A stretch of 45,509 nt of DNA from an uncultured bacterium (lineage in GTDB: Bacteria; Verrucomicrobiota; Lentisphaeria; Victivallales; UBA1829), in the NCBI GenBank assembly GCA_949290385.1, contig CASERY010000024.1:1-45509 (forward strand), written 5' to 3'. A program made the translations under genes and the position numbers. Under the pieces are notes generated by a model. The model was not told the origin of the DNA, ran no database searches, and worked only from the letters and a program-made list of their open reading frames with translations. Positions 2,857 through 44,338 of this stretch are shown here, in pieces (the first letter of the stretch is position 1; every line of letters begins with the position of its first letter).

Positions 2857-3947
2857 TATTTAATCTCCCCTCTGCGCATATTGAGTGCTGATGCGCTGGT
2901 GGATGTCCATCCAAACGGATGTTTATAGCAGAGTTTATCAATGAATGGAACCAGCGCATTCATAATCAGAATAGCAAAGCTTACACCTTCAGGATAGCTT
3001 CCCCAGATGCGGATGATACAGGCAATCAGTGCAATGGCCGCCCCAAAAAGCAAGGATCCAAGTGTGGTCATGGGCGATGTTACCATATCCGTGGCCATGA
3101 AGAATGCTCCAATCATCATGCCGCCTGAAAGGATGTGGAAGGTCGGTCCCGGAGTCAGTTCCGGATATGCCAGATGGATAATTCCTGTGAATAGCCACGC
3201 TGTAAGCAGCATTGCCGCAGGAACCTGCCATTTGATAAGCCTGAAACAAATAAGTCCGATGCCTCCGATCAGAATTGCCAACGCGCATGTTTCACCAAGG
3301 GACCCTCCGGTATATCCGATGAAAGCATGCCAGATGGTTGTATCAGATGCTGCTTCTGCCATTTTTTCAGCGGATCCCTTGGCAGCTGCAGCAATACCGA
3401 GAGGCGTTGCTCCGGTGATGATATCGGGTGCTTTCGCTCCAAACCAGAGGCCTGGATTCCGCCAGGTTGTCATGGGGCCGGCAAAACCGATGAGCAGGGC
3501 CACACGGGCAACCGCAGCCGGGTTGAATGGATTCTGTCCAAGACCGCCGAAGATCTGTTTTGCAATAATAATGGCAATGAAGGAACCTGTGATGCAGAGC
3601 CACCAGGGGGCTCCCGGAGGAAGATTCATTGCAAGAATGACGCCGGTCACCAGTGCACTACCATCAAAAATGGTCATTTTCTGATGAAGGAGTCTGCACC
3701 AGATCTATTCAAAAAGCACAGCGGATATGCCGCACCAGATATAAACCGAGAGTGCATAGACCCCAAAATAAAACAGTGATGCCAGGATTGCCGGCAGAAG
3801 ACAAAGCAGAACTTTGCCCATGATTTTAGAGATGGAATCATGATCCTGAATATGAGGAGAAGTGCTCAAGATCAGATGTTCAGGATTGGGAAGTCTTACT
3901 GCGACTTCCTGATCATGATTTTCAGTAAGATTTTTTTGCTCAGACAT
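2856..3947 (-). CDS. rnfD: Rnf complex subunit RnfD, with one in-frame TAG
   Basis: Polytopic membrane subunit of Rnf, 363 residues when TAG is read through. Codon 81 (3705-3707) is TAG. Upstream is the N-terminal soluble segment plus the first helices (LPNPEHLILSTSPHI is typical). Downstream, in the same frame, follow MTIFDGSALVTG, FGGLGQNPFNPAAVAR, the flavinylation motif TGATPLG and DMVTSPMT. All are expected in RnfD and in the right order. Termination at the TAG would leave only 80 residues and no flavin site. It starts 19 bases after the rnfC stop. The TAG is followed by IWCRLLHQK; in the family this position after Glu is variable. True stop is TAA at 2856-2858. Confidence 0.93.
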
Positions 3948-3965
3948 ATCAATCAGGTCTCCCGG

Positions 3966-5306
3966 TTATTTGCTTGCTCTGCGCATTGCGTTGATTTCAG
4001 CTTTAGCTCTGCGGAAATGTTGGACCAGCGGCCGTTTTGCAGGACATACATAGGTACAAACTCCGCATTCCATACAGTCCATAACATAGGATTTTTCCGC
4101 TTCATGGTAATTTTCATTTTCCACGAAAACACTGATGGGACCCGGTAAAAGTTTCATGGGGCAGGCATCTACGCACCGTCCGCACCGAATGCATGGCTAA
4201 GATGTATAATGACACGTTTCCGAGTCTTTCAGCAGCAGAATTCCGGATGTGTTTTTCATAATGGACGAATTCAGTGTTGCCTGTGCAAAGCCCATCATCG
4301 GACCCCCGGAAATCAGTTTGGCCGGTTCGCAGGTTACACCTCCGGCAAATTCCAGAGCCTTGGATACCGGTGTTCCAATCCGGAGAATCCACGTGGACGG
4401 ATTTTTTACAGGTGTTCCTGTGATGGTGGAATACCTTTCAATGAGAGGATGCCCTAAAACAACTGCATCGTAGATTGCCGCACAACTTCCCACGTTCTGC
4501 ACTACGCAGCCGACATCCATAGGAAGACCGCCAGCAAGAACCTGACGACCTGTAATAGCATAGATAAGCTGCTTTTCAGCACCTTGCGGATAGCGGACCC
4601 GAAGCGGGACTACTTGGACACCGTGTTTGTCTGCAATCGCGGAAAGAGCCTGAATGGCATCGGGCTTGTTCTTTTCAATTCCAAGATAAACTCGTTTAAG
4701 TTTCAGTATTTTTGCTGCGATCTCAGCACCTGTAAGAACTGCTTCCGTACGTTCGAGCATCAATCGATGGTCTGCTGTGAGGAAGGGTTCGCATTCTGCT
4801 CCGTTGAGGATCAGAAAATCGATGTTCTTTTCCGGAGGAGGAGAAAGTTTTACATGCGCAGGGAATGCTGCTCCCCCCATACCGACAATGCCGGCATCCA
4901 GAACTCTTTTTTTCAGAATTTCACGGTCGATATCCTTCCAGTTTTCCAGCGGCTCCAGACCGGATCCCCATTCGTCTTTTCCATCGGAGATGATTTCAAC
5001 AGCGGGAACAGCGGCACCGTTTGCACCCATAATTTCTGTGAACTCGCCGATTGTTCCGCTGGTGGGAGCATGGAGCGGTACAGAAACAAATCCGCCGGGT
5101 TCAGCTATGACTTGTCCTTTTTTGACAAGGTCACCTTTCTTTACAATCCATTTCGGCGGGGCACCAATATTCTGCTGGAGTGCCACAATATATTTGTCCA
5201 GAAGAGGAGGAATGCCTGCGGCTTTGCCGGAGGAAAGATTTTTTCCATCCAGATGCGGATGAATTCCGCCCTGGAAATAATGCTGTGCCTTTTGAATCAG
5301 ACTCAT
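3966..5306 (-). CDS. rnfC: Rnf complex subunit RnfC, with one in-frame TAG
   Basis: Peripheral NADH/FMN-binding subunit of Rnf, 446 residues when TAG is read through. N-terminal motifs GGIHPHLDGKNLS and GMGGAAFPAHVKL and the NQO1-like core (LILNGAECEPF) are clear. Codon 370 (4197-4199) is TAG. It is followed at once by the first 4Fe-4S motif PCIRCGRCVDACP and then by the second, CMECGVCTYVCP. Stopping at TAG would remove both iron-sulfur clusters and inactivate the complex. The residue before PCIRCG is polar and variable in relatives; Gln would fit. The ATG at 5306 overlaps the end of rnfB. Stop TAA. Confidence 0.94.
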
Positions 5307-6151: not shown

Positions 6152-6177
6152 AAATGAAACTCCTGTATCTCAAAACA

Positions 6178-8777: not shown

Positions 8778-8920
8778 CAGGATTTTAAAAATTTGTGTTT
8801 CTTGAGAATTTGGTATTGTTGACACAGGAAACATGGATGATTGGCGGACGCTTCTGTGTAGAGAAAGTCTATCCGGAAGCGTTTGTTTTTTAAAAGCGGG
8901 ATGGATGAAGGAGAAGGAAC

Positions 8921-9682: not shown

Positions 9683-9719
9683 GTCCTTATTTCAGATGAT
9701 GAAGGAAAAGAGGTGTGCC

Positions 9720-10205: not shown

Positions 10206-10530
10206 GTTTTTCCTTGACCATTTTTCCTGAGTGTTTGTACTTGAATTTCCAGCGTTTTTTCGAATGAATCCAGTTCTTGTTTGCCGCCGGTGAAAAGTCG
10301 GTCCAGATTATGTCCTGCATTGAGATGTGATCTGGAGGAACGGGCAGAAACGGTCCTCCAGTGAACTGGCTCAGATGTAGAAACGGCTTATGTCATGAAG
10401 GTATTTTCCACCGAAGAGCCAAAGCTGGATCAAGTCGATCAGGTCTGGCTCCGCTCTTCCCAATAAGAAGATCTGCTGTAACACAAAACTCTGGATAGCG
10501 TAAATTTGCTTCAAGGGAAGGTTCGCTGAT
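10206..10530. other. Intergenic stretch with an 8-bp stem-loop
   Basis: No gene is seen between the EIIA and methyltransferase genes. An inverted repeat CTGGAGGA (10332-10339) with TCCTCCAG (10354-10361) could form a stem with a 14-base loop. It lacks a following T-run, so it is not a typical intrinsic terminator. Its role is unknown. Confidence 0.4.
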
Positions 10531-11148
10531 ATGCTTGTTGATTCTGCTGCCTGTTATTATGATTTTCTTGCAAAAGAGAATCACGATCCTGTTTATGACC
10601 CGGAAGTCCTTCGTACTTATATGGACCAGTGGGATGGCCCGGAGTTTATAGAACGGATGGACCTGAATCCGGCGAAATCGGTCCTTGAAATTGGCGTTGG
10701 TACAGGACGTTTGGCATTGAGAACGGCTTCCCTATGTGGCGATTTTACAGGGATTGATCCTTCTCCTGAAACGCTTAAAAAAGCATAGAAAAATCTGGCT
10801 CATCTGGATAGAGTGCATTTAATCTGCGGAGATTTTCTGAACTATCCTTTTTCCCGAACCTTTGATGTTATTTATTCGTCTTTGACTTTAATGCATATAC
10901 AGGATAAGGCTTTTGCGATCCGAAAAGCTGCATCTTTACTGAAAAAGAATGGCAGATTCCTTCTTTCCATTGATAAGAGCCGCAGTGAATGGCTTGACTA
11001 TGGTTCTGTCCGTATCCGGATTTACCCGGATGATCCCTGGAGAATAAAGGGATATCTAATATCTGCCGGTCTGGCATTGGAGTAGGAATACGAAACTGTA
11101 CTGGCATGGATTTTTTCTGTGAGAAAAGAAAATCTGAAGCTCGTTTGA
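10531..11148 (+). CDS. Class I SAM-dependent methyltransferase, with two in-frame TAGs
   Basis: Predicted 205-residue methyltransferase when two TAG codons are read through. Motif I is VLEIGVGTGRLAL and motif II ends at GIDPSPETLKKA. Codon 86 (10786-10788) is TAG, and the next residues KNLAHLDRVHLICGDF give the expected acidic-loop motif (CGDF). Motif FDVIYSSLTLMHI follows. Codon 185 (11083-11085) is also TAG, between LALE and EYETVLAWIF, close to the C terminus. The context LKKA-x-KNL strongly favours a polar residue such as Gln. SD GGAAGG lies nine bases before ATG 10531. True stop TGA at 11146. The substrate is unknown. Confidence 0.88.
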
Positions 11149-11398
11149 TTTTTAGACACTTCTGAAGGAAACGCTTTGTATTTTCCCCTGTTTTTTTAAA
11201 AAAACAATGAGTAGGAAAAAAGCACTTTTGTTATGGATAAAATCAGTAGTAGTCTGATGATTTTAATACTTTTACCCTTCGTATTCAGAGAATTGCATGC
11301 AATGCAGTGCTGGCAAAGACAAGTCGTCTTTGACCGGAGAGAAAAAATTCTTTATTTTTGCTGGTTCTAATGCTGAAAATTTACAGGTCCCTGAATTT

Positions 11399-14659: not shown

Positions 14660-16039
14660 ATGAAATTGTCAGGAAGTATGGATTTGACCCGGGGAAATGC
14701 GGCTGCCAATCTTTTGAAATTTGCACTGCCTTTTTTGCTTGCATACTTTATGCAGGTGCTTTACAGCGCTGTGGATTTTATGGTAGTAGGGCATTTCTGC
14801 GATGGAAGCGCAGGGGTTTCAGCAGTGGCTAATGGAAGCGAAGTGATGAATTTAATCATGTCCCTGATCCTGGGATTGACGACAGGTGCAACGGTTTTAA
14901 TAGGACGCTATTACGGGGCAAAAAATATGGAGAAAGTAAATGCGAGCATTGGCATGGTGCTCAGTTTATCGACTCTGATTGCTCTGGGAATGACTGCTGT
15001 AGTAGTACCATGCATTCCATTCATTGTCCATTGTCTTAAAACACCCCCGGAAGCTGTCCGGGAAACCGCATCCTATGCGGGAATCTGTTCCTTGGGGATT
15101 TTCTTTATTTTTGGATACAATGCACTTTCCGCTATTTTCAGAGGATTTGGAAACTCCACGGCTCCATTGATTTTTGTTGGAATTGCCTGTATAATCAATG
15201 TGATTGGAGATCTTTTGTTCGTTGCTGTTTTTAACATGGGTGTTCCTGGAACGGCATTGGCAACTGTGCTTTCTCAGGCGTGCAGCATGTTTTTTGCACT
15301 GTATTATCTGCGAAAGGGCCCGGTTCGCTATCAATTTAAAAGGGAAAATTTCAGGATTCCATGGAATCTTGCCAGGGACTATATAAAAATCGGAATCCCT
15401 ATTGGCATTCAGGGAATCATGGTAAGTCTTTCTTTCCTTTTCATTTTTACGATTGTGAATTCCATGGGCGTTTCGGCTTCCGCAGGATACGGCATTTGTG
15501 CAAAGATCAATGGCTTTGCCATGTTGCCTGCCATGGCGTTTTCCATGGCGCTTTCAGCTACTACCGCCCAGAATATGGGTGCAGGGAAGCCTCATCGTGC
15601 CATCCATACGTTATGGCTTGGAATCGGGTATACTTTTTCCTTCGGGGCGGTGGCACTTTAGCTGCTACAGCTTTTCCCGGAGTTTTTTATATCAATTTTC
15701 ATCAGTTCTGACGGGAAGGGGGCTGAGGATGCTGTATTGGAGGCAGTCCGATACATCAGAAGTTTCAGCTGGGAATTTATTCTGGTACCGATTGTTTTCT
15801 GTACCAATGGATTTTTCAATGGCTGCGGGCATTCTTTTTTTTCAATGTGCAATAATCTTGGATCCACGTTTATCATCCGGGTTCCCTGTTCCTATGTATT
15901 GAGCATTCTGCCCGGGGCTACATTGTTTGAAGTGGGATTTGCAGCACCACTGGCTTCGTTCTGTTCAAATATCGTGGCCCTGTATTATCTTTTCAGCGGA
16001 AAATGGAAGAGAAAATCTTCCGCTCTGCATCGTGCATGA
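14660..16039 (+). CDS. MATE family efflux transporter, with one in-frame TAG
   Basis: A 459-residue polytopic exporter when TAG is read through, matching the usual MATE length. The N-terminal half shows MDLTRGNAAANLLKFALP, AVDFMVVGHFCDG and the second-half repeat begins around GIPIGIQGIMVSLSF. Codon 334 (15659-15661) is TAG between FSFGAVAL and LLQLFPEFFISIF. The rest (helices 9-12: SWEFILVPIVFCTNGFFNG, CGHSFFSMCNNL, PLASFCSNIVALYY) follows in frame. MATE proteins use sodium or proton gradients to export cationic compounds. The ATG has GAAGG about ten bases upstream. Stop TGA. Confidence 0.92.
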
Positions 16040-17417: not shown

Positions 17418-18287
17418 TTAGACTTGCGAAACAAATCTGGAAGCGTCTGTTTTTACCTTTTCGGAAAGAACTTCATCCATGCTTCCAGAGCGAAAACCGG
17501 CAAGATCCAGACAAACATAGCGGAATCCATATTTTGAAAGATGTTCTGTAATGGCCTGTCTTTTTTCCAACGCCAATGGCATCAAAGATGGCGGAACTTC
17601 AATTCGGGCGAGGAGGAGATTGCCGTGTACTCTCAGGCGAAAATCTGTATGCGGGGGAAAAATTCCAGATAGAAATGTTTCAGCCGATTGAATCCGTCTG
17701 ATTTTATCTGAAGAAAGTTCAGTCCCGTATTCGAACCTCGAAGCGGAACAGGGGACAGATGGAATCTATGCGGTCGGAAGATGCAGTTCTGCTGAATACT
17801 GCCGGATATCTTTTTTTGTCATTCCCGCCTCTGCCAGAGGAGAGAACACTGAAAGCTCCTTTAAAGCGCGCAATCCTGGACGAAAATGGTTCAAATCTTC
17901 TGAATTTGTTCCATCTGCAAGAGTGGCAATGTGCTTTTGTCGAGTATATTCCAGGAACTTTGTAAAAATATTTTTTTTGCAGAAATAGCACCGATCCGGT
18001 GGATTATTTTTGATCTCAGGAATTTCCTGAATAGGATCCATGGAAAAAATCTTGAGTGGGACTCCAAATTCAGTGGCAAGCTCCTGCACAGCGTGAAGTT
18101 CCTGTTCCGTTTGAAAAATAGAATGCATGTAGAGCGCTTCCAGATGAAAAAACTGTTCCTGCTGCAACTGTGCAAGTATTTTTAAAAGAAAGGTGCTGTC
18201 TGTACCTCCGGAAAACGCAACAGCAATGCCGTTAGCAGTATGCTGTTTTAAAATTTGTAAAAGAGTTGCGGACTTTTGGTCATTCAT
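17418..18287 (-). CDS. larE: LarE-type ATP-dependent sulfur transferase, with one in-frame TAG
   Basis: A 289-residue PP-loop enzyme when TAG is read through. The PP-loop AVAFSGGTDSTFLLK is near residue 30. The central part has DPIQEIPEIKNNPPDRCYFCK and LADGTNSEDL. Codon 174 (17766-17768) is TAG after ELHLPTA, and the frame continues IPSVPCSASRFEYGTEL, RRIQSAETFL, RVHGNLLLARIEV and CLDLAGFRSGSMDE. This is the expected LarE order; the SASRFEYG motif is diagnostic. In relatives the residue after LPTA is polar. LarE sacrifices a Cys sulfur to build the nickel-pincer cofactor, but larB/larC are not visible. ATG 18287 has GGAG seven bases upstream. Stop TAA. Confidence 0.9.
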
Positions 18288-18521
18288 AAATGGCTCCATG
18301 AAATCTTGCAGCAGAGAAAGAGAAAATGATAAGGAAGGAGGATATCCTTTCCTATTTTTTTTGAGGGACTGGTGCCGGGACCGGAATTTTTCAATTTTGT
18401 GGTCTTCTGGGCTCCCAGTAATATAACGCATTCGGACTTTTTATCGAGAGGATTTCCCTGTTCAGCTGGAAAAAAAGTCTGATTTCTGCTTGCAGTTTTT
18501 TTCATTGCATTGTAAATTAAA

Positions 18522-20402: not shown

Positions 20403-21755
20403 TTATTCATTTGGGAAAATCTGGAATCCCGAGTATGCGTCATTTCCGTGTTCTGCAATATCAAGACCTTTGAGTTCTTCCTCTTCGGTGACACGCAGTC
20501 CGATTGTTTTCTTCATAATGTAGAACATCTAGAATCCAAGTCCGAAAGCCCACGCGGCATATACAGCGACACCCAGAAGCTGGATCCCAAGCTGATGAAA
20601 TCCGCCGCCATAGAAAAGTCCGGTACTCTTATCGGAAAGTTTCAGCACTGCTTCTGCATTGAAAAGTCCGCAGGCTATGGTCCCCCAGACTCCATTCAGA
20701 CAGTGGACACTGACTGCTCCTACCGGGTCGTCAATGTGAATTTTGTCAAGGGTAAGGACACCCAGAATAACCAGAACACCTCCGATACCACCAATAATCA
20801 ATGCGCCTACTGGTGTAATTGTATTACATGGAGCGGTTACTGCAACAAGTCCTGCCAGGCAACCGTTCAGCGTCATGGAAAGATCTGGCTTTCCCATGAT
20901 AATACAGGCTGTAATCATGGCACAGACTGTACCGGCAACAGCGCCCATATTGGTAATCATGGCAATTCGTCCGATATCCCCGACTCCGGATGTAGTAGAC
21001 CCGGGGTTGAATCCGAACCATCCTATCCAGAGAATCAGAACACCCAGCGTGGCTATGACGAGGTTATGACCAGGAATGGAATTGGCTTTTCCGTCTTCCA
21101 TATATTTGCCGATACGGGGTCCCAGCACAATAGCTCCTGCCAGAGCAAGCCATCCACCGACGGAGTGAACAACAGTAGATCCCGCAAAATCACAGAATCC
21201 CAGATTTCCCAGCCATCCTGCTGCATCGGGATTGAAGAGACCGCCCCAGGCCCATTTACCAGAAATCGGGTAAATGATTGCACTTACAATAATGGAATAG
21301 ATCAGATAGGAAGAAAAGCGAATGCGTTCAGCAACTGCGCCGGAAACAATGGTGGCGGATGTCGCGCAGAACATGGTCTGGAAAAACATAAATGTCCAGT
21401 TCCAGTTGGATGCATCTTCAAATACTTTCATGAAAAAACCGTCTGTTCCAATCAGACCCCAGGCAGATTTACCAAACATGAAGGCAGATCCTACAAGGAA
21501 AAAGGCAATGCTTCCTACTGCAAAGTCCATAACATTTTTCATCATGATATTGGCTGCATTTTTTGCACGTGTAAAGCCTGTTTCAACCATGGCAAATCCA
21601 GTCTGCATGAAGAAGACCAGAATTCCAGCCACCAGAGTCCAGACAATATTCAGGTTCTGTTGAACAGCCTCTGCAGATGCGGAGTCTTGTGCAAAAGCAC
21701 TGGCTGAACTCAGAAAAGCAATGGCAAAAACGATATAAAAAACTTTAGAAATCAT
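20403..21755 (-). CDS. amtB: Ammonium transporter AmtB, with one in-frame TAG
   Basis: A 450-residue ammonium channel when TAG is read through. A signal peptide (to about residue 23, SSASAFAQ) precedes eleven helices. Motifs [40 protein letters not shown] (first pore His) and [10 protein letters not shown] (second pore His) are visible. Codon 409 (20529-20531) is TAG, in the last helix. It is followed by [18 protein letters not shown], the conserved cytoplasmic tail that contacts GlnK, ending at FPNE. Stopping at TAG would remove the tail. The ATG at 21755 has GGAG ten bases upstream and lies 25 bases after the glnK stop. Stop TAA. Confidence 0.93.
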
Positions 21756-21779
21756 CTTGATCTTACTCCGTTTCAAAAA

Positions 21780-23737: not shown

Positions 23738-23989
23738 GGCAGATTCCTTTCTTTTATTTTCTCTATAATACAATATACTGATTCCATTTGATTTTGCAAC
23801 CCCCTTTTTTGCTTCAGAGACGTACTGGTTTATTGATATTCAGATGGTTGTGTTTTTTAGACTTTTCAAATTCAATACAAAATACGCATGTATGCGGATC
23901 CTGGAATCCACAAAATTGAAGTGCAAAAACCACCGGGAAGTGATTTTATAGGGGGAAAAAAGATGGTGGCTGGTTTCCGGCATGCTTGG

Positions 23990-26889: not shown

Positions 26890-26918
26890 CAGACGGGAAG
26901 AAAGTGAGCTTTGAAGCT

Positions 26919-28007
26919 ATGAATGATTCTAATCAAATATCTTTACCGGCACGGCTGACTCAGATTGTTTTGGGATAGGCTCTTGCTGTCCTGATTGTGG
27001 TGGCTGTGGCAGTCTGTATATTTGCTGTGAAATATTATCTGGTATCCAGAGCGGACCTTCAGCCTGGTGAGTTCAGTGAAGTCATCCTGACTCCTTCTGA
27101 AGGGGCGAATATCGGAGAAATTATTACAGCAAGAGCTTCCATTGAAGCCCCGTGGAACTGGCGTCCCGGGATGAACGTCCAAGTACAGCTGAACGGGCAG
27201 AACGGCATTCAGCTGCATCAGGATGCTCATGTAGTCCGGAATCGGATTCTGTGGGGAAAATATCGGTGGACTGTCGAAGCAGAATTCCAGGCATTGCAGT
27301 ATAAGACTTTTGAAGGAATCACGTTGGAAGTCGATTTTTCCAATGGTTCAGAAAATCGTTCATTTGTTTTGAACGTGCCGCCCATTCGGGTTGAGGAAAC
27401 AGAGGAAGAGCAGAGTGAAGAGCCTGCTTCCTCATTAGAGCCTGAATATGCTTTAGCGGTTCCCCTGGTGCGGGAAGATAACTTCTGGGGAAGAATTTTT
27501 GCCGCTGTGCTGGGACTGCTTGTGATTGGTCTTGTGCTTTTTTCTGTAAGGGATTTGCTTTTTGGCGGAAGAAAAAAGAAAACAGAAAAGCCGTACTGGA
27601 TGTTGTCTATTGAAAAAATTGAACAGCTGAAGACCAGAACTGCGGCGCATGAGCTTTCTCTGGAACGGGCCGTTGCCAGACTGACGGATATTGTACGTCA
27701 GTATCTGGAGCAACGTTTTTTGCTGCCGGCAGCTCATCTGACAACGGAAGAATTCATGAAGAATTTGGAAGCAGATGGAAAATCGCCTTTGCGGGAACAG
27801 GACCGCAAATTCCTGAAATCCTTCCTGAATGCAGCTGATTATGTAAAATTTGCTGGAGTTTCTGCAGAGGCCTCCATGTTTCAGAATGCGGCTGATAAGG
27901 CAGAGCAATTGATCCGGGAATCCTCTGAAGGCACTGCTTTCAATGAAAATGAAGGGCAGGAGAATGCCGTAAGAAATGGTGGAGGAGGAATGAAAAATGG
28001 AATTTGA
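26919..28007 (+). CDS. Bat-operon membrane protein (DUF4381-like C terminus), with one in-frame TAG
   Basis: A 362-residue membrane protein when TAG is read through. Codon 20 (26976-26978) is TAG, right at the start of the first helix: ARLTQIVLG then ALAVLIVVAVAVCIF. An extracytoplasmic domain follows, then a second helix (about 190-210, IFAAVLGLLVIGLVLF). The C-terminal region (IVRQYLEQRFLLPAAHLTTEEFMKNL ... FLNAADYVKFA) matches the pattern common in proteins encoded between DUF58 and BatA. ATG 26919 lies 30 bases after the DUF58 stop; a GTG at 26904 in frame is an alternative. The last bases overlap the vWA gene start. Stop TGA. Confidence 0.82.
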
Positions 28008-30226: not shown

Positions 30227-31939
30227 ATGGATTCTGTACTCACAATCACCTCATTTGCTTTTTTCACAATCCTTGTGGCTGTTCTCACATGGGTGCTGAC
30301 AAAAGAAACTGAGTTGAACAGCAATGAAGGTTTCTTCCTGGCGGGACGTTCCCTGACATTCCCGTTCATTGCCGGGTCACTTCTGCTGACCAATCTTTCC
30401 ACGGAACAGATGGTAGGCTTGAATGGATCTGCCTTCATTTCAGGACTTTCTGTGATGGCATGGGAAGTCGTTGCCGTGATAACGCTTGTTTTAATGGCGC
30501 TGTTTTTCCTGCCGCGTTTTCTGCGGGCTGGAATTACGACTGTTCCTGAATATTTGCGGATGCGTTTTGACGGCCCTACAGAACTGATCTGCAGCATTAT
30601 TTTTCTGGCGGCATATGCTGTGATTCTTCTGCCGATTATTCTTTATACAGGTGCACGGGGACTGCTGGATGTGCTGGATCTGCAGAAACTGCTGGGCCTT
30701 TCTCCTACTTAGTCCATGTGGGTCGTTGTGATTGCCGTAGGCTTGATCGGATCCATTTATGCGATTTGGGGTGGCCTGAAATCCTGCGCAGTTTCCGATA
30801 CGCTGAATGGTATTGGTCTTCTGGTCGGTGGTTTTTTAATTACTTATTTTGCCTTCCGAGTTCTGGGAGATGGCAGTTTTGCTGAAGGAGTTTCCATCTT
30901 TGGCAAGGAAGCATCTGAGGCACATCGTTTGAATTCCATTGGTGCCAACGATGCTGAAGCGCCTTTTACTTCGCTTTTTACTGGAATCCTGATTATTAAT
31001 GCTTTCTACTGGTGTACGAACCAGCAGATTATTCAGCGCACTTTTGGGGCAAAAGGGCTTGCAGAAGGGCAGAAAGGAGTTCTGCTGACTGCCGGACTCA
31101 AGCTGATCGGACCATTGTATCTGGTCCTTCCGGGACTGATTGCCGCAGTTATGGTGACAAAAGGCATTATGACAATTCCCGCAGATCCAGACAGTTTGAA
31201 TTATTCAGACTTTGCCTATGGAACACTGGTAAGCTTTGTTCTGCCCAAATGGCTGACAGGATTTTTTGCAGCGGTGCTGCTGGGTGCCATCTTATCCAGT
31301 TTTAATTCTGCACTGAACAGTACATGTACCATTTTCAGCTTAGGAATTTACAAACGTCTGATCAATCCTGAAGCATCGGACAAACGGGTGGTTTACATTG
31401 GTCGTATTTTCGGTTGCATTCTGGCTGCAGCCGCAGTCATTGTTGCTCCTCTTCTGAGCAGTACAGGAGGTATTTTCTCTTATCTTCAGAAGATGAACGC
31501 CATTTATTTTATTCCTATTTTTTCTGTAGTTCTGATGGGTATGCTGAGTACAAAAGTACCGCCTGCAGCTGCAAAATTCGGGCTGATTGGCGGTGTGGTA
31601 TTGATTGCTCTTGGATATTTTGTGCCGCCTTTCAATATCGTTACAGATTCTGCCAGACTCGGATTTAAAGGGGAATATCATTTTGTAGCTGCTGTTTTTG
31701 TTCTCCTGATGGTTGTGATGTATGTAATCGGGCGTATTTGTCCGCGTGAAACGATTGTGCCGGATGCCAAGGCTACAGATATGACTCCATGGAAACATGC
31801 AACTTAGGCATCGGTTATCCTGATTTTAATTGTGATTGTGATTTACGCTGCATTCGCGGACTTTTCTTCCATTGCAAAAAATGATGTACCGCGTCCAGTA
31901 CCTCCGGCTTCTGCTGCAGTAAGTGCTGTGGTTGAGTAA
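30227..31939 (+). CDS. Sodium:solute symporter (SSS, YidK-like), with two in-frame TAGs
   Basis: A 570-residue polytopic transporter when TAG is read through. The N terminus (TSFAFFTILVAVLTW, NEGFFLAGRSLTFPFI, TNLSTEQMVGLNG) is typical of sugar-type SSS members. Codon 162 (30710-30712) is TAG after LLGLSPT. It is followed by SMWVVVIAVGLIGSIYAIWGGL and SDTLNGIGLLVGG. From memory, relatives carry Gln-Ala-Leu-Trp here, so Gln fits. Codon 527 (31805-31807) is TAG after TPWKHAT, before ASVILILIVIVIYAAF, the last helix. Sodium-site motif AAVLLGAILSSFNSALNS is present. AAGGAG precedes ATG. A terminator follows, and a glycosidase gene converges. Stop TAA at 31937. Confidence 0.93.
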
Positions 31940-32007
31940 GGAGGAATACTGAAAGGTTTTGAGTTTTTATTTTTGATGTCTGTGTAAAAATCGATACCGC
32001 TTAAGAG

Positions 32008-34718: not shown

Positions 34719-35657
34719 ATGAAACTGAGCTTTTTGCTTCCCCGAGAGTGCGTCGTTCCCGGAATCCGGGGCGGAGAACGGAGCAAGCGGGATCTTTTAA
34801 ATGAGCTGACCGATGTGCTTTTTCGTGAGACATCTCTGAAGGATGAGGGATTTTCCCGGGAAGAGATTGTGGAAACCCTTCTGGCCAGAGAAAATGAACT
34901 TTCCACCGGGGTGGGAGATGGATTTGCTTTTCCTCATGCCCGGCTGAAAGATTTAAAAGGGGCCTATCTGCTGTTTGCCACGTGTCCTTCCGGTGTCAGC
35001 TATGCAAGTCCGGACAACAATCCGGTTCATTTCTTTTTTCTGACCGTTGTTTCTGAGGATCATGCGAATTTGCTTCTACAGTCGAGAGCAGCACTTATGC
35101 GCTGTCTGCTGCCGCTTGCTGCCAGACAACAGGCTTTAGCGTGTTCAACACGGGATGAACTGTGGAAAATGATTGACCGGAGTGGCAGCATGATCAGCCG
35201 AGATATTGTTGCCAGAGATATCATGTGTCCGCAGATTGGAGTTTTGCGGGAAGACATGACAATTGCCGAAGCTGCCACAGCTATGCATAAATAGCATTCG
35301 GATTTAATGCCCGTGGTGGATGAAGATGGCTGTCTTGTCAAAGTCCTTTCCTGCAGGGATCTTTTCCGCCATACATTGCCGGAGATGTTTTTTACCATGA
35401 AAACATTGTCATTTGCAAGGTATATGGATCCATTTTCGCTGAACTTAAACAGAAACGGCATTTTTGTCCGGGATATCCGGACAGACAGGAAAACTGCTCT
35501 TCCTGTTGCAGAAGTCGATTCAACGCTGACAGAACTGATCTTCCAGATGTGTGCCTGCCAGTTTGATACTCTGTTTATTGTGGATAGAAAAAAACTGAAG
35601 GGTGTGATTAACCGGTATGCTCTGGTGGATAAAATTTTAATTGGAATGGAGCACTGA
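34719..35657 (+). CDS. PTS EIIA domain fused to two CBS domains, with one in-frame TAG
   Basis: A 312-residue regulatory protein when TAG is read through. Residues 1-145 form an EIIA_2 domain with the phosphorylatable His73 in GDGFAFPHARLKD. Two CBS domains follow. The first starts at ARDIMCPQIGVLRED; codon 192 (35292-35294) is TAG in MHK-x-HSDLMPVVDEDG, an exposed CBS position. The second CBS (GIFVRDIRTDRK ... FDTLFIVDRKKLKGVI) follows in frame. AAAGGAG precedes ATG 34719. It is upstream of two ion transporters, so it may sense phosphorylation state and adenylate levels and regulate them; this is inference. Stop TGA. Confidence 0.88.
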
Positions 35658-35932
35658 ACTGCCGGATCTGTACTGTTCGCTGCAATGCCGACTGTTCCTG
35701 AGGTTAGGGGGAGTATATATGCAGGCTGGGGTCATCTAAAAAACTTCATGCTGTCTTTTATCTCGATTGAATTGGATTGGATGAAAGACTGAAAAGGAAA
35801 TACAGATGAAAAAAGCTGGAGCAGAAAGGCTCTGACGAGAACTGCATCTTCCAACCGGATTTCTGGATGGCCTGCAGAAAGAGAACTGATGGCGAACGGA
35901 TTGTAACTGTAAGAGAAAGGTTAATTTCCAGA

Positions 35933-37309
35933 ATGATTTGTCATTTGCTAGCAAATATTGAAAATTCAGGTGCTGTACAGGAACTTCCATTTCTCGCAGA
36001 AAAAATGGGGGTTGAGCTTCACGGGCGCTTTGCATTGTGGGGGGCGCCGATACTTCTGCTGATCGTGCTGATTTTGTTCTGGTTCAGGGATAGGATTGCA
36101 TCTTCTGTTACTGTGCTGATCGGTGTTGCAGTGGCACTTCTTTGCGGATTTACAACATTTGACCGGGCATCGGCGTCCATTGATTTGAATGCCTTATTTT
36201 TAATTATGAGTATGATGATCTGCACGCATATCCTGTCTGAAAGCGGATTTTTTGAATGGGCTGTTATCGGAATGACGAAGCTGCTGAAAGGAAATGTACT
36301 GCTGATTTTGTTCTTCCTGCTGTTCCTGTGTATGCTGTTTTCCGCATTTCTGGATAACGTGACAACGGTTGTGCTGATGATTCCATTGGCAATTATCATA
36401 GCTCGGGTTCTGGAAATTCCTGTGGAGGCAACGCTTTTGTCTGTGCTCCTTTCGGCAAATATTGGAAGCATGGCAACGTTGCTCGGGAGTCCGGCTAATA
36501 TGATCCTAGGAGCCCAGACAGAACTGACGTTTAATGACTTCTTGTTGAATGCACTACCGTGTGCGGTGGGATTGACGGCAGTTTTTTTTGTTTTTGTTGT
36601 TTTCAGAATGTCTGGGAAACTTTTGCCGCCGGCAGTAATCCGTACAAGAGTGTCTGATTTCTGTCCATCCGGAGCAATTGTGAATTTAAAACGCATGCGT
36701 TCTGCGTTTGCAGTTTTCCTCCTGATGATTTAGGGCTTTGTCCTTCAGCCGCTGATTGGAATCGAACCCGGGGTGATTGGTGTAATAGGAATGGCTTGTA
36801 TGCTGGCACTATATCGTCCTGAGACAAAGAAACTTATGAGTTATTTCCTTTGGGATGCCATCCTGGAGCTGGTGGGACTGTTCATCCTGTGCGGCGCATT
36901 GAAAGATGCCGGATCGCTGAATTATCTTGGAACATGGATTCTTGAGCTTTGCAGAGACAATGCTTTTGCGGTCTGCATGGTTCTGCTGTGGGGGACGGCT
37001 CTGCTGTCCATGTTGATGGACAGCATTCCATTGGCGCTTTGTCTGATTCCTGTTCTGGCCGGCCAGCTGATTCCGGGGGTAAATCTACCCGAATCTCACA
37101 GCAATCCATTGTACTGGGCGTTGCTTTTTGGCCTTTGTCTGGGCGGATGCGGATCTCTGCTGGGATCTCCGGCAAACAGCGCTATGAAGAGACTGGCTGA
37201 GGGAAATGGATATCAAATTACTGCGGCACAATTTTTTATGCGAGGATTTCCGCAGATGCTGATTCAGCTGGCATTCTGTACGCTTTATCTGTGGATGCGG
37301 TATTTCTGA
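35933..37309 (+). CDS. ArsB/NhaD/SLC13-type ion transporter, with one in-frame TAG
   Basis: A 458-residue polytopic protein when TAG is read through. The first half has SAFLDNVTTVVLMIPLAIIIA and SANIGSMATLLGSPANMILG, the conserved hairpin motif (SNxGGxATLIGDPPN-like). Codon 267 (36731-36733) is TAG after AVFLLMI, before GFVLQPLIGIEPGVIGVIG. The second half has a matching hairpin, DSIPLALCLIPV and GGCGSLLGSPANS. Both halves are needed for transport. Substrate could be sodium/proton, arsenite or a dicarboxylate. The ATG at 35933 has GAAAGG 12 bases upstream; ATG 35867 in frame is an alternative. It sits between EIIA-CBS and an SLC12-like gene. Stop TGA. Confidence 0.86.
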
Positions 37310-37435
37310 AAAAGAAGGTTGTTTTTTATTGGGATGGAACTTGATTTTTGCTGTTTTTGAAGGATATTGGAACAGCAGATTTTTCAGTTCGTTAGAAGAA
37401 GCGCAAGTGGAAACAGACAGGATCGGCGGAGATTT

Positions 37436-39724
37436 ATGACAGACCCTATCAATGGCATTGCCGCGCCGGCGGAAACAGAACAGGAAAGCGGACACGCGTT
37501 CGGTACCTTCAACGGGGTATTTCTTCCTTCGATTTTGACCATGCTGGGTGCAATCATGTTTCTCCGTGTCAACTATGTTACCGGGACCGGAGGCATTGCG
37601 GGGGCTCTTCTGATCCTGGTTGCCGGAGTGTCGATTGTGTTGGCAACGGCGTTGTCCATTTCGGCGATATCCACGAATACACCGGTGAAAAGCGGTGGGG
37701 TTTACTTCCTGATTTCAAGAACATTAGGACCTGGATTCGGCGGATCTATCGGAATCACGCTTTTTTTTGCCCAGGGAATTTCCATACCATTCAATATTCT
37801 GGGTTTTGCAGAGGCGGTTTGCACGGATTATCCTGTCCTTGCACCTTATTACTTTTACCTTTCTCTCGGGACAGGTATTGTGTTGCTGCTGGTGACATTT
37901 TCCGGAGCGGATTTTGCGATGAAGTTCCAGTTCGGTATATTTATTGCATTGCTTCTGGGAATCCTTACCATGTATCTGGGATCTGCCTTGCATTTTTCGC
38001 CGGCATCTTTTGCATCCAACTTCAAAGGATAGGAAAATGCCGGGTATGGAGCATTGTTTGCATTGTTCTTTCCTGCTTTGACAGGCATTATGGCAGGGGT
38101 GAATATGTCCGGAGACCTGAAGAACCCATCCAAGTCCATTCCGAAGGGCATTCTCTACACAATTCTGGCGGGTTTTGTTTTGTATGCGCTTGAGATTCTG
38201 ATTTGCGGAGGAGCGTTTAAAAGAGAAGTCTTGATTAATGAACCGTATAAAGTCCTGGTAAATTCCGCCCCATGGAATTCTGGATTCCTTTTGACAATCG
38301 GCGTGGCTGCTGCAACGCTTTCAACAGGACTAGGACTTTTTGTCTGTGCGCCAAGAGTTCTTCAGGCTTTGGCGAATGATCATATTATTCCGTGTCTGGC
38401 TGTGTTTGGGAAAGGCAGAGGTGCTCATCACGAACCTTTTGCTGCAACGGTGCTTCTGGGGGGGATTGTGCTTGGAATTATCGCGGCTGCCTCCTGGAAG
38501 GGATTGAGTCCCTCTGGTATGAGCGCCGGAATGAATCAGGTGGCGGAAATTGCATCCATGTGCTTTCTGCTGACCTATACCATGGTGAATCTGGCGGCTT
38601 TTGTGGAATCATATGGAAAGAATCCATCATTCAGGCCGCGCTTTAAATTTTTTCACTGGTCTGTGGCTTTGTATGGTTTTTTAGCGTGTCTTGCTGTTTC
38701 ATTTTATATTAACTTCTGGTCGGCGGGGATTGCGCTCCTGGTGGTATGGGGATTGTTCATCGTCATCAAGAGGAGAAAATTTCAGGCGGCTTTCGGGGAT
38801 GCCCGGAGAGGTTTTCTGTATTCGAGAATTCGGGAAAATCTTCTGGCACTGGCAAGACTGCCGTATGATCCCAAAAACTGGCGTCCGACAATTTCAATTT
38901 TATCTGGAAAACCTGAAGAACAGCTTTACATGCCGTATTTCGCGTCTATTCTGGAGGCGGACCGGGGAATTGTAAGTCTGGTTAAATTTGTGGAATACGG
39001 TCCGGGTGAAAGTGCTCAGGGACTTTCGGAACATCAGGAAGAGGTCCGGAAGTTATATGATCTGCTCTGGACGCAGAACGGACTTTACAATGTATTTCCG
39101 GAAGCCGTTGTGTGTTCCGATTATGACCGTTCTCTTCAAGTTTTTCTGCAGGCGCATCTGATAGGACCGCTGAAACCTAATATTGTCATGATGAATTATC
39201 CGGAGAATCCCATGCGCGTGGAACAGAATATACGGCATCTGCATACGATTCAGGCTTTGAACATGAGTGCTCTGATGATGATGAATTTTGGAGGGTATAC
39301 TGTGAATCCGGACCGTATGATCCGCGGGACAATCGACGTCTGGTGGCGTGGAACTCCGAATTTGTCGGTGATGCTGATTCTTGCCAATATTTTGCGTTCG
39401 GATCCGTTGTGGCTTGGAACGGAGCTTCGGATTCTGCGGGTTACACGTAAAGAGGAGGATATTTCCTCATAGGAAAGAGAGATGCAGGATTTAGTGGAAT
39501 CTTCTCGTATTGAAGCATGCATTGAAATTATTCGAACGGATGATCCGTTTAAAAGTGTCATGCGTGAGAAGTCTGCCTCTGCTGCTGCACTGTTTCTGGG
39601 TTTTCTACTTCGGGAGGATGATGCGGAGAATCGCAGAAGTTTTGAACGGCTTTCTGAATTTCTGGCAGGAATGCCGCCGGCCTTTATTGTCTGTGGAACG
39701 GGAGGGGCGGACTTCCGGGCATGA
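37436..39724 (+). CDS. SLC12-like (Na-K-Cl cotransporter type) permease, with two in-frame TAGs
   Basis: A 762-residue protein when TAG is read through. The APC-fold membrane part starts FGTFNGVFLPSILTMLGAIMFLR, a hallmark of SLC12-like cotransporters. Codon 199 (38030-38032) is TAG in NFKG-x-ENAGYG, followed by ALFALFFPALTGIMAGVNMSGDLKNPSKSIPKG, the family's strongest motif (in parts). A cytoplasmic C-terminal domain follows from about residue 450. Codon 679 (39470-39472) is TAG after EDISS, and 83 more residues continue (MQDLVESSRIEACIEIIR ...), ending at TGA 39722. GGAG precedes ATG 37436 by five bases. The ion carried cannot be told, though potassium is plausible given the EIIA-CBS neighbour. 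Confidence 0.9.
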
Positions 39725-39790
39725 TAAAAAGAAAATAGACAGAAAATACAATCAAGGAACTACTATTCAGGAAAAGAAAGTGAGAAAAAA

Positions 39791-40348: not shown

Positions 40349-40504
40349 AGCAATTCTTGTTTTCTGTGGAGAGAATGAGAAAAAAGATGAGCTATGTTCC
40401 AGGACTGTTGTTCTGAAGTCTTCTGGCTCCTGGAGGAAGGAGATTTCAAAGGATTCTGATTCTGGATTCTGTGGCGGGATTGTGTGTGATTCTGGAGGTA
40501 TTGA

Positions 40505-41149
40505 TTGATCGGTGATATTCATTGTTTCAGCCGTATGAGCCTGGAATATCCGGAAAAAATGGTTTTTGCACGTTTAGGCGGACATTTACATAAAACCATT
40601 CTGGAGGGTTCTGCAGCGGAGAAGGTAAGACATGCTGCGATTCATGCATTTTCTCTGTGCAGGCCTCAGGGGCGTTATTGTGTTCTTCCTGTACGGGAAG
40701 TATCTGAAACTGGAATCCTTCTAACGGATGGCAGTGCGGTGTCTTCCTGCGATTTTGCCAGAAAGTGCAAAAACATTACACATCTCTGGTGTGCAGCGGT
40801 AACCGTCGGGGTTGATATTACGGAAGCCAGAGATTCTCTTGAGTCTGTAGCAGAGCGGGCCGTGTATGATGCCGTGGGGGGGGAAACAGCGGATGCCGCT
40901 ATGGAATTCATGCACCGGAAATGTTGCCGGGATCTGTTGAGTCGTGGACTGAATCTTTCGGAACGCCGTTTTTCTCCGGGATATGGAGATATGCCGCTTG
41001 AACTTCAGTTTTTTTTGTACAATCTTTTAAAAATGAATGAAATGGGTATAACACTATCTGACCGGTGCTTTATGACGCCTGAGAAATCGGTAACGGCATT
41101 TGCCGGAATTACCTCAATTCAAGGATCTGTTTTTTATGACACGAAATGA
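40505..41149 (+). CDS. Stand-alone methionine synthase reactivation (B12 activation) domain protein
   Basis: A 214-residue protein of the Met_synt_B12 activation type, which rebinds S-adenosylmethionine and reductively remethylates cob(II)alamin in MetH. Motifs include the YDAVGGETADAAMEFMH helix and RFSPGYGDMPLELQ, the typical SAM-loop RxSPGYxD/E. In most MetH this domain is fused at the C terminus; here it is separate. The start is probably TTG 40505, with GGAGG six bases upstream; an ATG in frame lies 30 bases further. Its end overlaps the metH start by 14 bases. Stop TGA. Confidence 0.85.
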   Translation: MIGDIHCFSRMSLEYPEKMVFARLGGHLHKTILEGSAAEKVRHAAIHAFSLCRPQGRYCVLPVREVSETGILLTDGSAVSSCDFARKCKNITHLWCAAVTVGVDITEARDSLESVAERAVYDAVGGETADAAMEFMHRKCCRDLLSRGLNLSERRFSPGYGDMPLELQFFLYNLLKMNEMGITLSDRCFMTPEKSVTAFAGITSIQGSVFYDTK

Positions 41150-43571
41150 ATTTCAAGAATATGCCGGATCTCAGTGTCTGATTCTGGATGGGGCTACCGG
41201 TACAGAGCTGATTAAACGTGGAATGCCGGGAGGAGTCTGTCCGGAACTGTGGGTTTATGAGCACCCGGAGGTCATCTTGGATGTTCATACAGCCTATCGT
41301 GAAGCCGGAAGCCATATTGTTTATGCTCCGACCTTTGGAGGAAATCGTTGCAAACTGGAAGAATTTCATCTGGCAGACCGTCTTCATGAAATTGTCAGTG
41401 GACTTGTACGAATGACACGGAGAAAGTCGTCGGATTCCTCCTAGCTGGTTTTTGGAGATATTGCGCCAACAGGACGTTTTGTTGAACCCTATGGAGATTT
41501 GCCGTTTGAGGAGGCCGTGGAGATTTTTCGGGAAACTGCGGCTGCGATGGCTGAAGGCGGCGTGGATGGTTTTGCCATTGAGACCATGATGGATCTTCAG
41601 GAAGCCCGTGCTGCACTGCTGGGGGTTCGGGAAGCGGCTCCGGATTTGCCGGTTCTTGTGACCATGACGTTTGAGCCATCTGGAAGAACCTTGACAGGTG
41701 TTCATCCTGTCTGTGCATTGAATGCTCTTCAGGCACTGGGGGCGGATGCCTTCGGATGTAACTGTTCCACAGGACCTGCTGAAATGGCGGAAATCCTTGC
41801 TGAAATAAAGCCGTTTGCAAAAATTCCTCTGATTGCAAAACCGAATGCCGGATTGCCGAGAATGGAACAGGGGAGAACTATTTTCCCGATGGGTCCGGAG
41901 GAATTTGCTTCATATGCAGACCGTCTTTTTGAATCTGGTGCATCCATTTTCGGGGGATGCTGCGGCACAACGCCAGAGCATATCCGATGTCTTTCAAACG
42001 CTGTGAAGAAATGTGGAAAACCAGAGAAAAGAAAACCGGTTTCAGGTGTTGTATCCTCTGTTTCTGAGTATCGCAGATTATCTGTGGATCAGCTATTCAC
42101 AGTTATTGGCGAACGCATTAACCCAACTGGAAAGAAGGCGCTGCAGGCGGAGCTCCGGGCTGGAAAAACAGATTTGATTTTTGATTTTGCTTTACAGCAG
42201 ACTTCAGCAGGAGCTTCTATTCTGGATGTCAATATGGGGCTTTCAGGTATTCAGGAGTCGGAAATGATGCGAAAAGCTCTGTGCCGTTTGCTGCATTGCA
42301 CAGCAGCGCCGCTCTGTATAGATTCAACAGATCCGGATACGGTAGAACAGGCACTGCGTCTGTATCCGGGACGAGCACTTCTGAATTCCATCTCAGCTGA
42401 AGAGAAGCGTCTGAAACAGATTCTTCCCATTGCAGCAAAATACGGGGCAATGCTGATTCTTCTTCCATTGACGGACGATGGCATACCCGCCACAGCCGAG
42501 GAACGGATGAAGGTGGTAGATCTTATTCTAAAAGAGGCTGCACAGTACGGTTATACCGTGGAAGATGTGTGTGTGGATGCCTTGATTATGACAGTTTCAG
42601 CAAATCCTGAGGCAGCAAAAGTATCTCTGGAGTTAATCCGCCGCTGTACAGAACGTGGAATGAATACTGTTTGCGGACTCTCTAATGTGAGTTTTGGTCT
42701 TCCGTCGCGGCCCCTGCTGAATCAGACATTTTTAGGGATGGCAATGGGGCATGGCCTGAATATGGCGATTGCCAATCCCCTGTCAGAAGAACTGATGAAT
42801 ATGATTGCAGCTGGAGATGTCCTTTCCGGAAGAGATAGACAGATGAAAAACTTCCTGTCAAAGTTTGCGAATTCTGCCCAGACAGGAAAACCGGAGCAGG
42901 GACATGGCAGATCATCATCCGCTATGCGGAATCTGACCCCGGATGAGCAGGTCTTTCAATGTGTTCTCCTGGGGGATGCTGAGGGAATTGTCAAACGGAT
43001 TGATGCACTGCTTGCAGCGGGCAGGGATCCTTCAGACATAATCAGCGATATTTTAATCCCAGCCATTACAGAAGTGGGAAAGAAATATGAAAGCAAGGAG
43101 TATTTTCTTCCTCAGTTGATTATGAGCGCAGAGGCCATGGAGAAAGCGTCAAAATATCTGGAGCCGTTGCTTTTGAAAGAGAAAGGTCCGGGTGGCCAGA
43201 AGACAAAAATGATCTTAGCGACGGTGAAAGGGGATATTCATGATATCGGGAAAAATATTGTAGGTGTCATGTTTCGCAATTACGACTTTGACGTGATTGA
43301 TTTGGGAAAAGATGTTCCGCCGGAACGGATTCTGGATACTGCTGTACGGGAGAACGTTACCTTGATAGGACTTTCGGCACTGATGACAACCACAATGAAT
43401 TCCATGCGGGATGTCATTAACCTTGCAAAAGCGCGCGGGTTAACCCATTTAAAATTCATGATCGGTGGAGCTGTTGTGGATCAGAATTTTGCGGATGAGA
43501 TTGGAGCCTATTATGCGCCTGACCCCATGAGTGCGGTACGACTGGCAAAAAAACTGCTGAATCTTGAATGA
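41136..43571 (+). CDS. metH: Cobalamin-dependent methionine synthase core (MetH), with one in-frame TAG
   Basis: An 811-residue MetH lacking the C-terminal activation domain. The homocysteine domain starts with LILDGATGTELIKRG. Codon 103 (41442-41444) is TAG after RRKSSDSS, before LVFGDIAPTGRFVEPYGDL. Zinc-ligand Cys motifs GCNCSTGP and GGCCGTTPEH follow, then the pterin domain (VIGERINPTGKK), the B12 cap and the cobalamin-binding domain with GDIHDIGKNIVG (His ligand). Terminating at TAG would give a 102-residue fragment. No start with ribosome site follows the TAG at once. The reactivation domain is encoded just upstream. Stop TGA. Confidence 0.94.
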
Positions 43572-43936
43572 ACTGTTGGTCTTTCATATCTGGCTTTGAA
43601 ACACTCATAAAAAGCATAACTACAAATCTATTTACAGCTTCAACCTATTCTAATGTTTGAGGTGTCGTAGACTGGATCCGGCATATGCTTAAGCTGGAGA
43701 TGTGTGATGAAAGGCATTGGATTTGTCATTATTCTGATGATGAAAGAGAAAGCCTGAATTCATCGAATGTGCTTATATATAAGTTTATAATAAAATAGGA
43801 TCAGGAAGATCCATAGTAACTTATATAAGGAATCGTTGTTTCGCAGAATATGGGAAAAGAAATAAAAAAATCAATGTGTTTCTTTTACGAATGGATGGAT
43901 TGCTGAATTTTGTCCGTTTTTTTAGCTAACTGCGGG
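43572..43936. other. Stretch without a supported gene
   Basis: Only short frames are present. One plus-strand frame from ATG 43686 runs 37 codons, then through two TAG codons to TAA at about 43822, but it has no homology or ribosome site, so I did not call it. No clear terminator for metH was found. Confidence 0.4.
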
Positions 43937-44338
43937 TTAGGACAGAGATGATAAACAGAACTATGTAAAGATCAGTAGAATCATTAAATGTCCTCCCATA
44001 TCCAGTACGCACAGCATTCTGATATGAGTCCAGAGAATGGAACTTTTCCAGAAAACAAAAAGAAGCCCTCTGTACACAGTTTCTGCAATAAAAGCATATG
44101 CAATGAAGTTTGTCAGAGGGTTCAGTCTTTGCGATGAAAAAGAAAAAATATTCCAAAAATCTCTGGTTACGCCACATAAAGGGCATTCCTGTCCGGTAAC
44201 TCGTTTGTATGGACAGGAAAACTGGATTCCATATCCTTCCAACTATTTTGCCGCAAAAAGATAAATTAGGAAATACAAGCCAAAAGAAATGATTGTCCAG
44301 TGATAAATTTTAAAAAACGTTGTTTCTTTTTCTTGCAT
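43937..44338 (-). CDS. DUF2752 membrane protein, with two in-frame TAGs
   Basis: A 133-residue membrane protein when TAG is read through. The N terminus MQEKETTFFKIYHW leads into a first helix (FGLYFLIYLFAAK). Codon 32 (44243-44245) is TAG. The diagnostic DUF2752 motif follows: CPYKRVTGQECPLCGVTRDF (Cys pair CPLCG and TR). Two further helices follow. Codon 126 (43961-43963) is TAG, with FCLSSLS before TAA at 43937. Without read-through, the first helix would be missed and the C terminus shortened. DUF2752 function is unknown. The ribosome site before ATG 44338 is weak. Confidence 0.78.

Follow-up and report, generated by a model that had tools for sequence, protein, structure and literature searches.

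The stretch of DNA analysed in this study (referred to as the window; 45,509 nucleotides) is contig C24 of the genome assembly of an uncultured bacterium of the order Victivallales (Lentisphaeria; GTDB UBA1829; assembly GCA_949290385.1, contig CASERY010000024.1). Its G+C content ranges from 41 to 49%. The window carries the rnfD and rnfC genes, several genes for transporters (of the MATE, AmtB, sodium:solute symporter, ArsB/CitMHS and SLC12-like types), a larE-like PP-loop gene, moxR, a metH-like gene and a number of less well defined frames, and all of these contain one or two in-frame TAG codons (Table 1). The original prediction, made from the letters of the window, reported 20 such codons in 15 genes and proposed that TAG is a sense codon throughout this segment, without naming the amino acid. 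We relocated all 20 of them at their positions. Since TAG was read through in this analysis, an end in TAA or TGA is given by construction for the frames of the window.

Table 1. In-frame TAG codons of the window (G008 is a related genome of the same family)
Feature	TAG codon	TAG position	Gene or frame	Strand	Observation or basis
rnfD	residue 81	3705..3707	gene 2856-3947	-	NQR2_RnfD_RnfE match, 362.9 bits, residues 27-346
rnfC	residue 370	4197..4199	gene 3966-5306	-	after the SLBB match, ahead of the first 4Fe-4S match (from 372)
methyltransferase	first, residue 95	10786..10788	frame 10504-11148	+	within the Methyltransf_25 match
methyltransferase	second, residue 194	11083..11085	frame 10504-11148	+	outside the Methyltransf_25 match
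MATE-family transporter	residue 334	15659..15661	gene 14660-16039	+	two MatE stretches, the first being 24-184
larE-like PP-loop gene	residue 222	17766..17768	gene 17418-18431	-	Pfam, weak
amtB	residue 416	20529..20531	gene 20403-21776	-	Ammonium_transp match, 422.8 bits, 45-448
coiled-coil frame	two TAGs	22997-22999 and 22925-22927	frame 22778-23773	-	no Pfam match
moxR	residue 11	24981..24983	gene 24951-25973	+	ahead of the AAA_3 match
Bat-like membrane protein (name from the original prediction)	residue 25	26976..26978	frame 26904-28007	+	no Pfam match
sodium:solute symporter	first, residue 162	30710..30712	gene 30227-31939	+	glutamine in G008
sodium:solute symporter	second, residue 527	31805..31807	gene 30227-31939	+	tyrosine in G008
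EIIA-CBS gene	residue 192	35292..35294	gene 34719-35657	+	within the CBS match
ArsB/CitMHS transporter	residue 289	36731..36733	gene 35867-37309	+	CitMHS bits: alanine 182.5, serine 181.7, glutamine 180.7
SLC12-like transporter	first, residue 222	38030..38032	gene 37367-39724	+	homologues: alanine 18/87, serine 17/87
SLC12-like transporter	second, residue 702	39470..39472	gene 37367-39724	+	homologues: alanine 76/108
metH-like gene	residue 115	41442..41444	gene 41100-43571	+	homologues: alanine 33/64
DUF2752-like frame (name from the original prediction)	two TAGs	44243-44245 and 43961-43963	frame 43937-44338	-	translation

A Pfam scan was performed with 20 TAG-bearing window frames, comprising 14 of the 15 genes of the original prediction, one wrong frame for DUF2752 and five other frames. 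Fifteen of the frames gave a family match and five gave none. Judged from the match spans listed, half of the 20 codons lie within a Pfam match, i.e. those of RnfD, the methyltransferase (first TAG), larE (weakly), AmtB, SSF (first TAG), CBS, CitMHS, SLC12 (both TAGs) and MetH. The remainder are placed outside matches, in the gaps separating them or in frames lacking any match. In the rSAM, Thi4 and CAAX frames of the window, which were among the additional inputs of the scan, the TAG precedes the domain. A database fragment marked as a window-encoded protein, P0243, stops one residue ahead of TAG 702 of the SLC12-like gene. It comprises five member sequences from two contigs, the longest of 12,511 bases and neither of them the contig of the window, and it appears that the TAGs of this gene are present on other contigs as well.

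The assembly to which the window belongs (G000) is composed of 2,680,693 bases in 168 contigs. It is estimated to be 78.5% complete and 2% contaminated, and the former figure may be too low if marker genes are cut at TAG. Among the genomes compared, its genus is represented by this genome only. The protein for release factor 2 (RF2) is closest to sequences assigned to Lentisphaeria, Lentisphaerae or Victivallales, many of which originate from rumen, cecum or colon, and scores 84% against the homologue of isolate SIG77. For comparison we used G008, a 97% complete genome of the same family, in which release factor 1 (RF1) is present. The sample consisted of 743,747 bp of the own assembly (42 stretches, 28% of the assembly), which was compared with 1,949,943 bp of G008.

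Among 111,964 own codons aligned with G008, 105 TAG, 21 TGA and 8 TAA codons were found in frame. After application of a flank filter, which requires at least 12 columns and 4 identities in 12 on each side of the stop, 58 TAG, 7 TGA and no TAA codons were retained (58 of 65 being TAG). A reverse control passed through the same filter, in which own frames were compared with G008 DNA (142,261 codons), yielded 2 TAG, 3 TGA and 1 TAA; both of these TAGs are in doubtful frames and are unconvincing. The seven filtered TGAs of the own genome come from five alignments, four of which contain at least two stops, while the fifth is antisense to another gene (as judged by eye). The 58 filtered TAGs are distributed among 48 frames, on 26 of the 42 stretches, and affect 48 of the 319 query genes compared.

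The Pfam names assigned to TAG-bearing frames of the sample include RpoC, RpoA, SecY, RF2, AlaRS, MreB, RuvA, MiaA (IPP transferase) and DapA (dihydrodipicolinate synthase), and a single AcrB-family (RND) protein of 1042 residues contains six TAGs. These core genes are not those in which decay would be expected. The frequency of TAG is lower in the sample (0.94 per 1000 aligned codons) than the 1.7 per 1000 codons given for the window in the original prediction. The central claim of that prediction is borne out beyond the original segment, in homologous protein of core genes, and the alignments support the assignment of UAG as a sense codon in the sampled 28% of the genome.

The ends of 228 own genes, aligned near the C terminus, were also inspected. 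The sample did not contain the numerous TAG-terminated genes that would speak against a sense codon: the genes end in TAA (118), TGA (93) or, in at most five cases, TAG, with 12 undecided, and in each of the five TAG cases a TAA or TGA follows 2 to 14 codons further on. The tag frame of the own transfer-messenger RNA ends in TAA. The same 228 genes of G008 end in TGA (119), TAA (107) and TAG (2). Since G008 possesses RF1, rare TAG ends alone do not separate the two genomes; G008 has nearly abandoned TAG as a stop and has kept RF1.

The RF2 gene of the own genome (523 bits) contains a TAG, whereas the 33 most similar RF2 genes of other Lentisphaeria (one of these genes being cut) all lack one. 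No RF1 match over the cut-off was obtained in the own, 78.5% complete assembly, where the matches of the RF1 model correspond to RF2 and to a 58-position piece elsewhere. The RF1 of G008 was matched with 458 bits, and of the 36 genomes in the family, 33 gave near full-length RF1 matches (32 over the cut-off and G001 close to it, at 415.8). The genomes without such a match are the own genome, G016 and G034, the last perhaps with a fragment. Since the own assembly is incomplete, the absence of RF1 alone proves little. G016 belongs to the genus of G008, and its RF2 match contains no stop. In G008 (L155:9259-12530), the end of a glnN-like gene (named by eye) overlaps with the start of prfA. Two glnN-like genes (L282 and L283) are present in the own genome, and within the reach of their contigs no prfA comes after either; downstream of one of them lies another gene. 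A deletion of prfA deduced from this synteny is suggestive only, as the contig of the other glnN-like gene stops 67 bases past it.

In order to predict the amino acid specified by UAG, we analysed ten TAG columns of four proteins with many near homologues (MetH, RND, SLC12-like and RF2), which were picked for their TAGs and available homologues and not at random; an eleventh TAG, in DnaE, was excluded by the gap rule. The log-likelihoods of these deep columns were +8.8 nats for alanine (Ala), -0.8 for serine (Ser) and -5.1 for glutamine (Gln), i.e. a lead for Ala of 9.6 nats over Ser and 13.9 over Gln, and Ala remained first with any one of the four proteins omitted. The mean fraction of Ala in the ten columns is 0.42 against a background of 0.11; they include columns with Ala 25 and Thr 3, and with Ala 20, Ser 7 and Gly 1, while that of RF2 is mixed. 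In calibration, with ten residue types, the known residue was named correctly in at least 99% of ten-column draws. The Ala score was reached by none of 5000 sets of Gln columns and by none of 5000 sets drawn from all non-Ala columns with similar entropy.

A different approach is provided by the residues of G008 that face the filtered TAGs (57 sites, as one of the 58 TAGs faces a gap): Ala 12, Gln 8, Lys 6, Glu 5 and Ser 4, followed by many others. As a reference for TAG we used own codons of matching local conservation, with 4000 draws. A CAG-like behaviour of TAG would predict 24.6 Gln and 3.0 Ala residues at the 57 sites; 8 and 12 were seen, values reached in 0 of 4000 draws each. TAG sites are thus unlike CAG sites, and the resemblance between the two that characterizes genetic code 15 was not found. 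The codons AAG, GAG, TCG, TTG, TGG and TAC failed in the same way on their own residues. For an amino acid with a codon one step from TAG, most new TAGs would be silent and the residue would be kept, so the observed deficit disfavours Gln, Lys, Glu, Ser, Leu, Trp and Tyr and favours a residue lacking a one-step codon. Ala has no codon one step from TAG and is also the commonest G008 residue at these sites, an argument of ours that is drawn from one relative. Taken with the deep columns, these sequence comparisons lean towards UAG being read as Ala.

The best explanation of the data, and one that we hold to be fairly probable, is that UAG is a sense codon in this genome, likely specifying Ala, after a probable loss of RF1. 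The fuller account, to which we give slightly less credence and which we regard as somewhat probable, is that in a bacterial chromosome of ordinary size UAG was abandoned as a stop, RF1 was lost and UAG passed to Ala by codon capture, while a relative that has all but ceased to use TAG stops keeps RF1. According to this scheme, (i) TAG would have fallen from use as a stop in an ancestor, G008 representing the starting point of codon capture, (ii) RF1 would then have become dispensable and been lost, (iii) the free UAG may have been captured by an Ala-charged tRNA with a CUA anticodon, encoded in the missing part of the assembly, and (iv) new TAGs would have arisen by single base changes from CAG, AAG, GAG and TCG wherever Ala was tolerated. 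Such an origin would explain the presence of Ala, Gln, Lys, Glu and Ser in G008 at the TAG sites. Alanyl-tRNA synthetase does not read the anticodon; an Ala tRNA could therefore gain UAG through an anticodon change alone.

Several observations weigh against this reading. With respect to the sense codon and the loss of RF1, a few of the 58 TAGs (e.g. on L144 and L142) possibly lie in doubtful frames too, up to three of the five TAG gene ends could, in our judgement, be real stops with a back-up, and the lack of RF1 is a weak argument, since G016 (72% complete) has no RF1 match either. After the second glnN-like gene, only 67 bases remain before the locus and, judging by its length, the contig come to an end, and no prfA-like start is seen in them. 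With respect to Ala, the likelihood of the 57 G008 residues under a model of settled codons was -1.7 for Gln, -16.8 for Lys, -19.2 for Ser and -20.7 for Ala, so that in this one-genome test Gln was ahead by about 13 to 15 nats and came first in 823 of 1000 bootstrap replicates (Ala in 86 of 1000); all of the values are negative, which means that no amino acid fits the settled-codon model well. TAG is also unlike ordinary own Ala codons, for which 33.6 Ala residues would be expected at the 57 sites where 12 were seen, a shortfall that we argue, from this one relative, is as predicted by the one-step origin of the TAGs. One protein (RND) supplies six of the ten deep columns, and two of these six favour other residues (Gln 16/28; Lys 13/28 with Arg 9/28), and the difference between Ala and Gln was reached by 1 to 2% of mixed column sets. 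The DnaE TAG lies in a gapped insert in which the relatives have Ala (1), Gln (3), Glu (3), Asp (2) and Asn (2). When TAG was replaced in 20 proteins, with one varying family score each, the Pfam bits (summed by hand) tied, at 5399.5 for Ala, 5398.3 for Gln and 5396.3 for Ser. Finally, no tRNA with a CUA anticodon was found among the 46 own tRNA matches over the cut-off (one of which is a piece at a contig end).

The search for a CUA tRNA involved RF00005 at E values of 0.001 and 10, ARAGORN on the tRNA loci, a pattern search and the tRNA-Sec model. ARAGORN was also run on the sample at lowered thresholds, and at the lowest of these it gave CUA calls of noise level only, in G008 as well. Several ordinary tRNAs of G008 (Ser GGA, GCT and CGA, Ala CGC and Arg CCG) are missing from the own assembly, so a CUA tRNA may likewise be encoded in the part not assembled. 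On contig C164 (L133:65-149, minus strand) there is a tRNA-like element with CUA in its loop (tRNA-Sec 19.4 bits, E 0.375 genome-wide). Its variable arm is long and its acceptor stem comprises 9 pairs, one of them mismatched, but the anticodon and T stems are poor and nothing clearly related to it was seen in the DNA compared; it is not claimed as the decoding tRNA. Changes in the anticodon stems of the own Gln, Tyr, Trp and Lys tRNAs were considered and rejected, as ARAGORN showed these stems to be regular. The own tRNA-Gln(UUG) (L260:6011-6084, contig C83) differs from that of G008 in the acceptor and anticodon stems, more than tRNA-Gln(CUG) does. A tRNA-Gly/tRNA-Tyr pair with identical scores is present on two own contigs (C5:12990-13170 and C158:16900-17076).

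Among the alternatives to Ala, the one that fares best, though we consider it unlikely, is that UAG encodes Gln, as in genetic code 15, through a Gln tRNA with a CUA anticodon or a near-cognate Gln tRNA. Gln, which UAG commonly specifies in nature (in phages and nuclear codes), is the leading single amino acid in the one-genome likelihood, and all eight of the G008 Gln residues at the filtered TAG sites are encoded by CAG. It also came first in the initial ten proteins of the Pfam substitution test (Gln 2763.6, Ala 2760.9, Lys 2759.2, Glu 2759.0, Arg 2758.7 and Tyr 2743.7 bits). In the second set of that test the order was reversed (Ala 2638.6, Gln 2634.7 bits), and, CAG to TAG being a silent change under this meaning, about 25 of the 57 sites should have Gln in G008. 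A straightforward Gln meaning was our first reading. It was dropped on the evidence of the deep columns and the CAG comparison, though one test favours Gln and another is tied.

It is less probable still, and in our estimation rather remote, that RF1 was lost and UAG has been left without an assigned meaning, being poorly read by near-cognate tRNAs and tolerated only at unconstrained sites. Such a state is consistent with the lack of a CUA tRNA in the own assembly, with the higher entropy of the TAG columns (1.59 vs 1.09) and with the lower local identity around the unfiltered TAGs (0.469 at 96 TAGs vs 0.566 for CAG; the 57 filtered TAGs give 0.561, but the filter itself demands identity). There is also a precedent: RF1-free recoded E. 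coli inserts Gln, Tyr, Asp and Val at UAG, and frameshifting and rescue occur there too (PMC6207430). Against such a state stand the TAGs of the essential rpoC, rpoA, secY, prfB and mreB genes, the six TAGs of one protein and the preference of TAG for Ala/Ser columns, some of which are nearly invariant; a codon lacking an assignment should not show this preference.

A proteome-wide use of UAG for pyrrolysine would agree with the known sense use of this codon in bacteria, and, as the pattern of sites requires, pyrrolysine has no one-step synonymous codon. We consider it very improbable. No PylS match over the cut-off was obtained in the own genome, although the gene could lie in its missing part, and none was found in 148 genomes at E 1e-10, where a Methanosarcina control was positive (other pyl genes were not searched). 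In addition, a bulky residue would be ill-suited to Ala-conserved columns. The weak PylS match of the own genome is an EpmA/GenX-like gene (L047, contig C16), located near an elongation factor P-like gene (both named by eye). Sequencing or assembly error, pseudogenes or contamination, which a single assembly in 168 contigs might invite, is hardly credible given the predominance of TAG over TGA and TAA after filtering, the core genes affected, the spread over the stretches, and database fragments, probably from other contigs, that start or stop around the TAGs.

The distribution of the putative change was examined with a single gene, and thus coarsely, by scanning DnaE in 148 genomes, 137 of which (the own genome included) belong to the same order. 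Among the matches listed, a TAG inside DnaE was present only in the own genome and in G098, and this coarse test gave no sign of a change of UAG elsewhere in the family. G098 (C100:9621-12818) has one TAG in DnaE together with an RF1 match over the cut-off, which represents either an error or a second case.

A transfer of UAG to a standard amino acid on a chromosome would give bacteria a new genetic code, and the genome concerned is not tiny, nor is it AT-rich. G008, with RF1 and almost no TAG stops, seems to represent the stage that precedes the change, and codon capture, which is usually argued from endpoints, becomes testable within one family. If Ala is right, it points to an anticodon-blind synthetase as an easy route. 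There is also a practical aspect: at least 48 of the 319 genes compared would be truncated in gene calls that use table 11, and the completeness of assemblies of this kind may be underestimated.

The original prediction knew of no bacterial chromosome using UAG as a standard amino acid. Users of pyrrolysine apart, this agrees with PMC8629427, according to which the bacterial stop-codon changes then known concern UGA, and with our literature searches, which found no such case in the open literature (most subscription journals lying outside their scope). UGA encodes Trp in Mycoplasmatales and insect symbionts and Gly in Absconditabacteria and Gracilibacteria (PMC8629427). These reassignments resemble the present case in being chromosome-wide changes from stop to sense for which codon capture has been described and proposed (PMC8629427), but here UAG and RF1 are concerned, and the 2.7 Mb assembly, with the G+C content given above for the window, is neither reduced nor AT-rich. 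The crAss-like gut phages with genetic code 15 are another gut-associated case in which UAG has a sense meaning (PMC9523058); they are phages and not chromosomes, and in our case Gln fails the CAG comparison, though not every test. Marine Deltaproteobacteria with an expansion of pyrrolysine likewise have in-frame TAG in a bacterium (PMC8318568), whereas here PylS was not found in the own genome or its relatives and the TAGs are situated in general core genes. RF1-free recoded E. coli reads through UAG without RF1, as would be the case here, but it is man-made and UAG was removed from its genome (PMC6207430), in contrast to the TAGs inside essential genes found in this study. The nearest parallel is offered by the mitochondria of the green algal family Hydrodictyaceae, in which the same codon has the same amino acid as proposed here (UAG=Ala; PMC6821328). 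They differ in being organelles with a changed release factor and a described Ala-type CUA tRNA (PMC6821328), none having been found in the present assembly. In a further similarity to the present case, where TAG stops are rare in G008, UAG was scarce in the relatives of these algae before it returned as a sense codon (PMC6821328).

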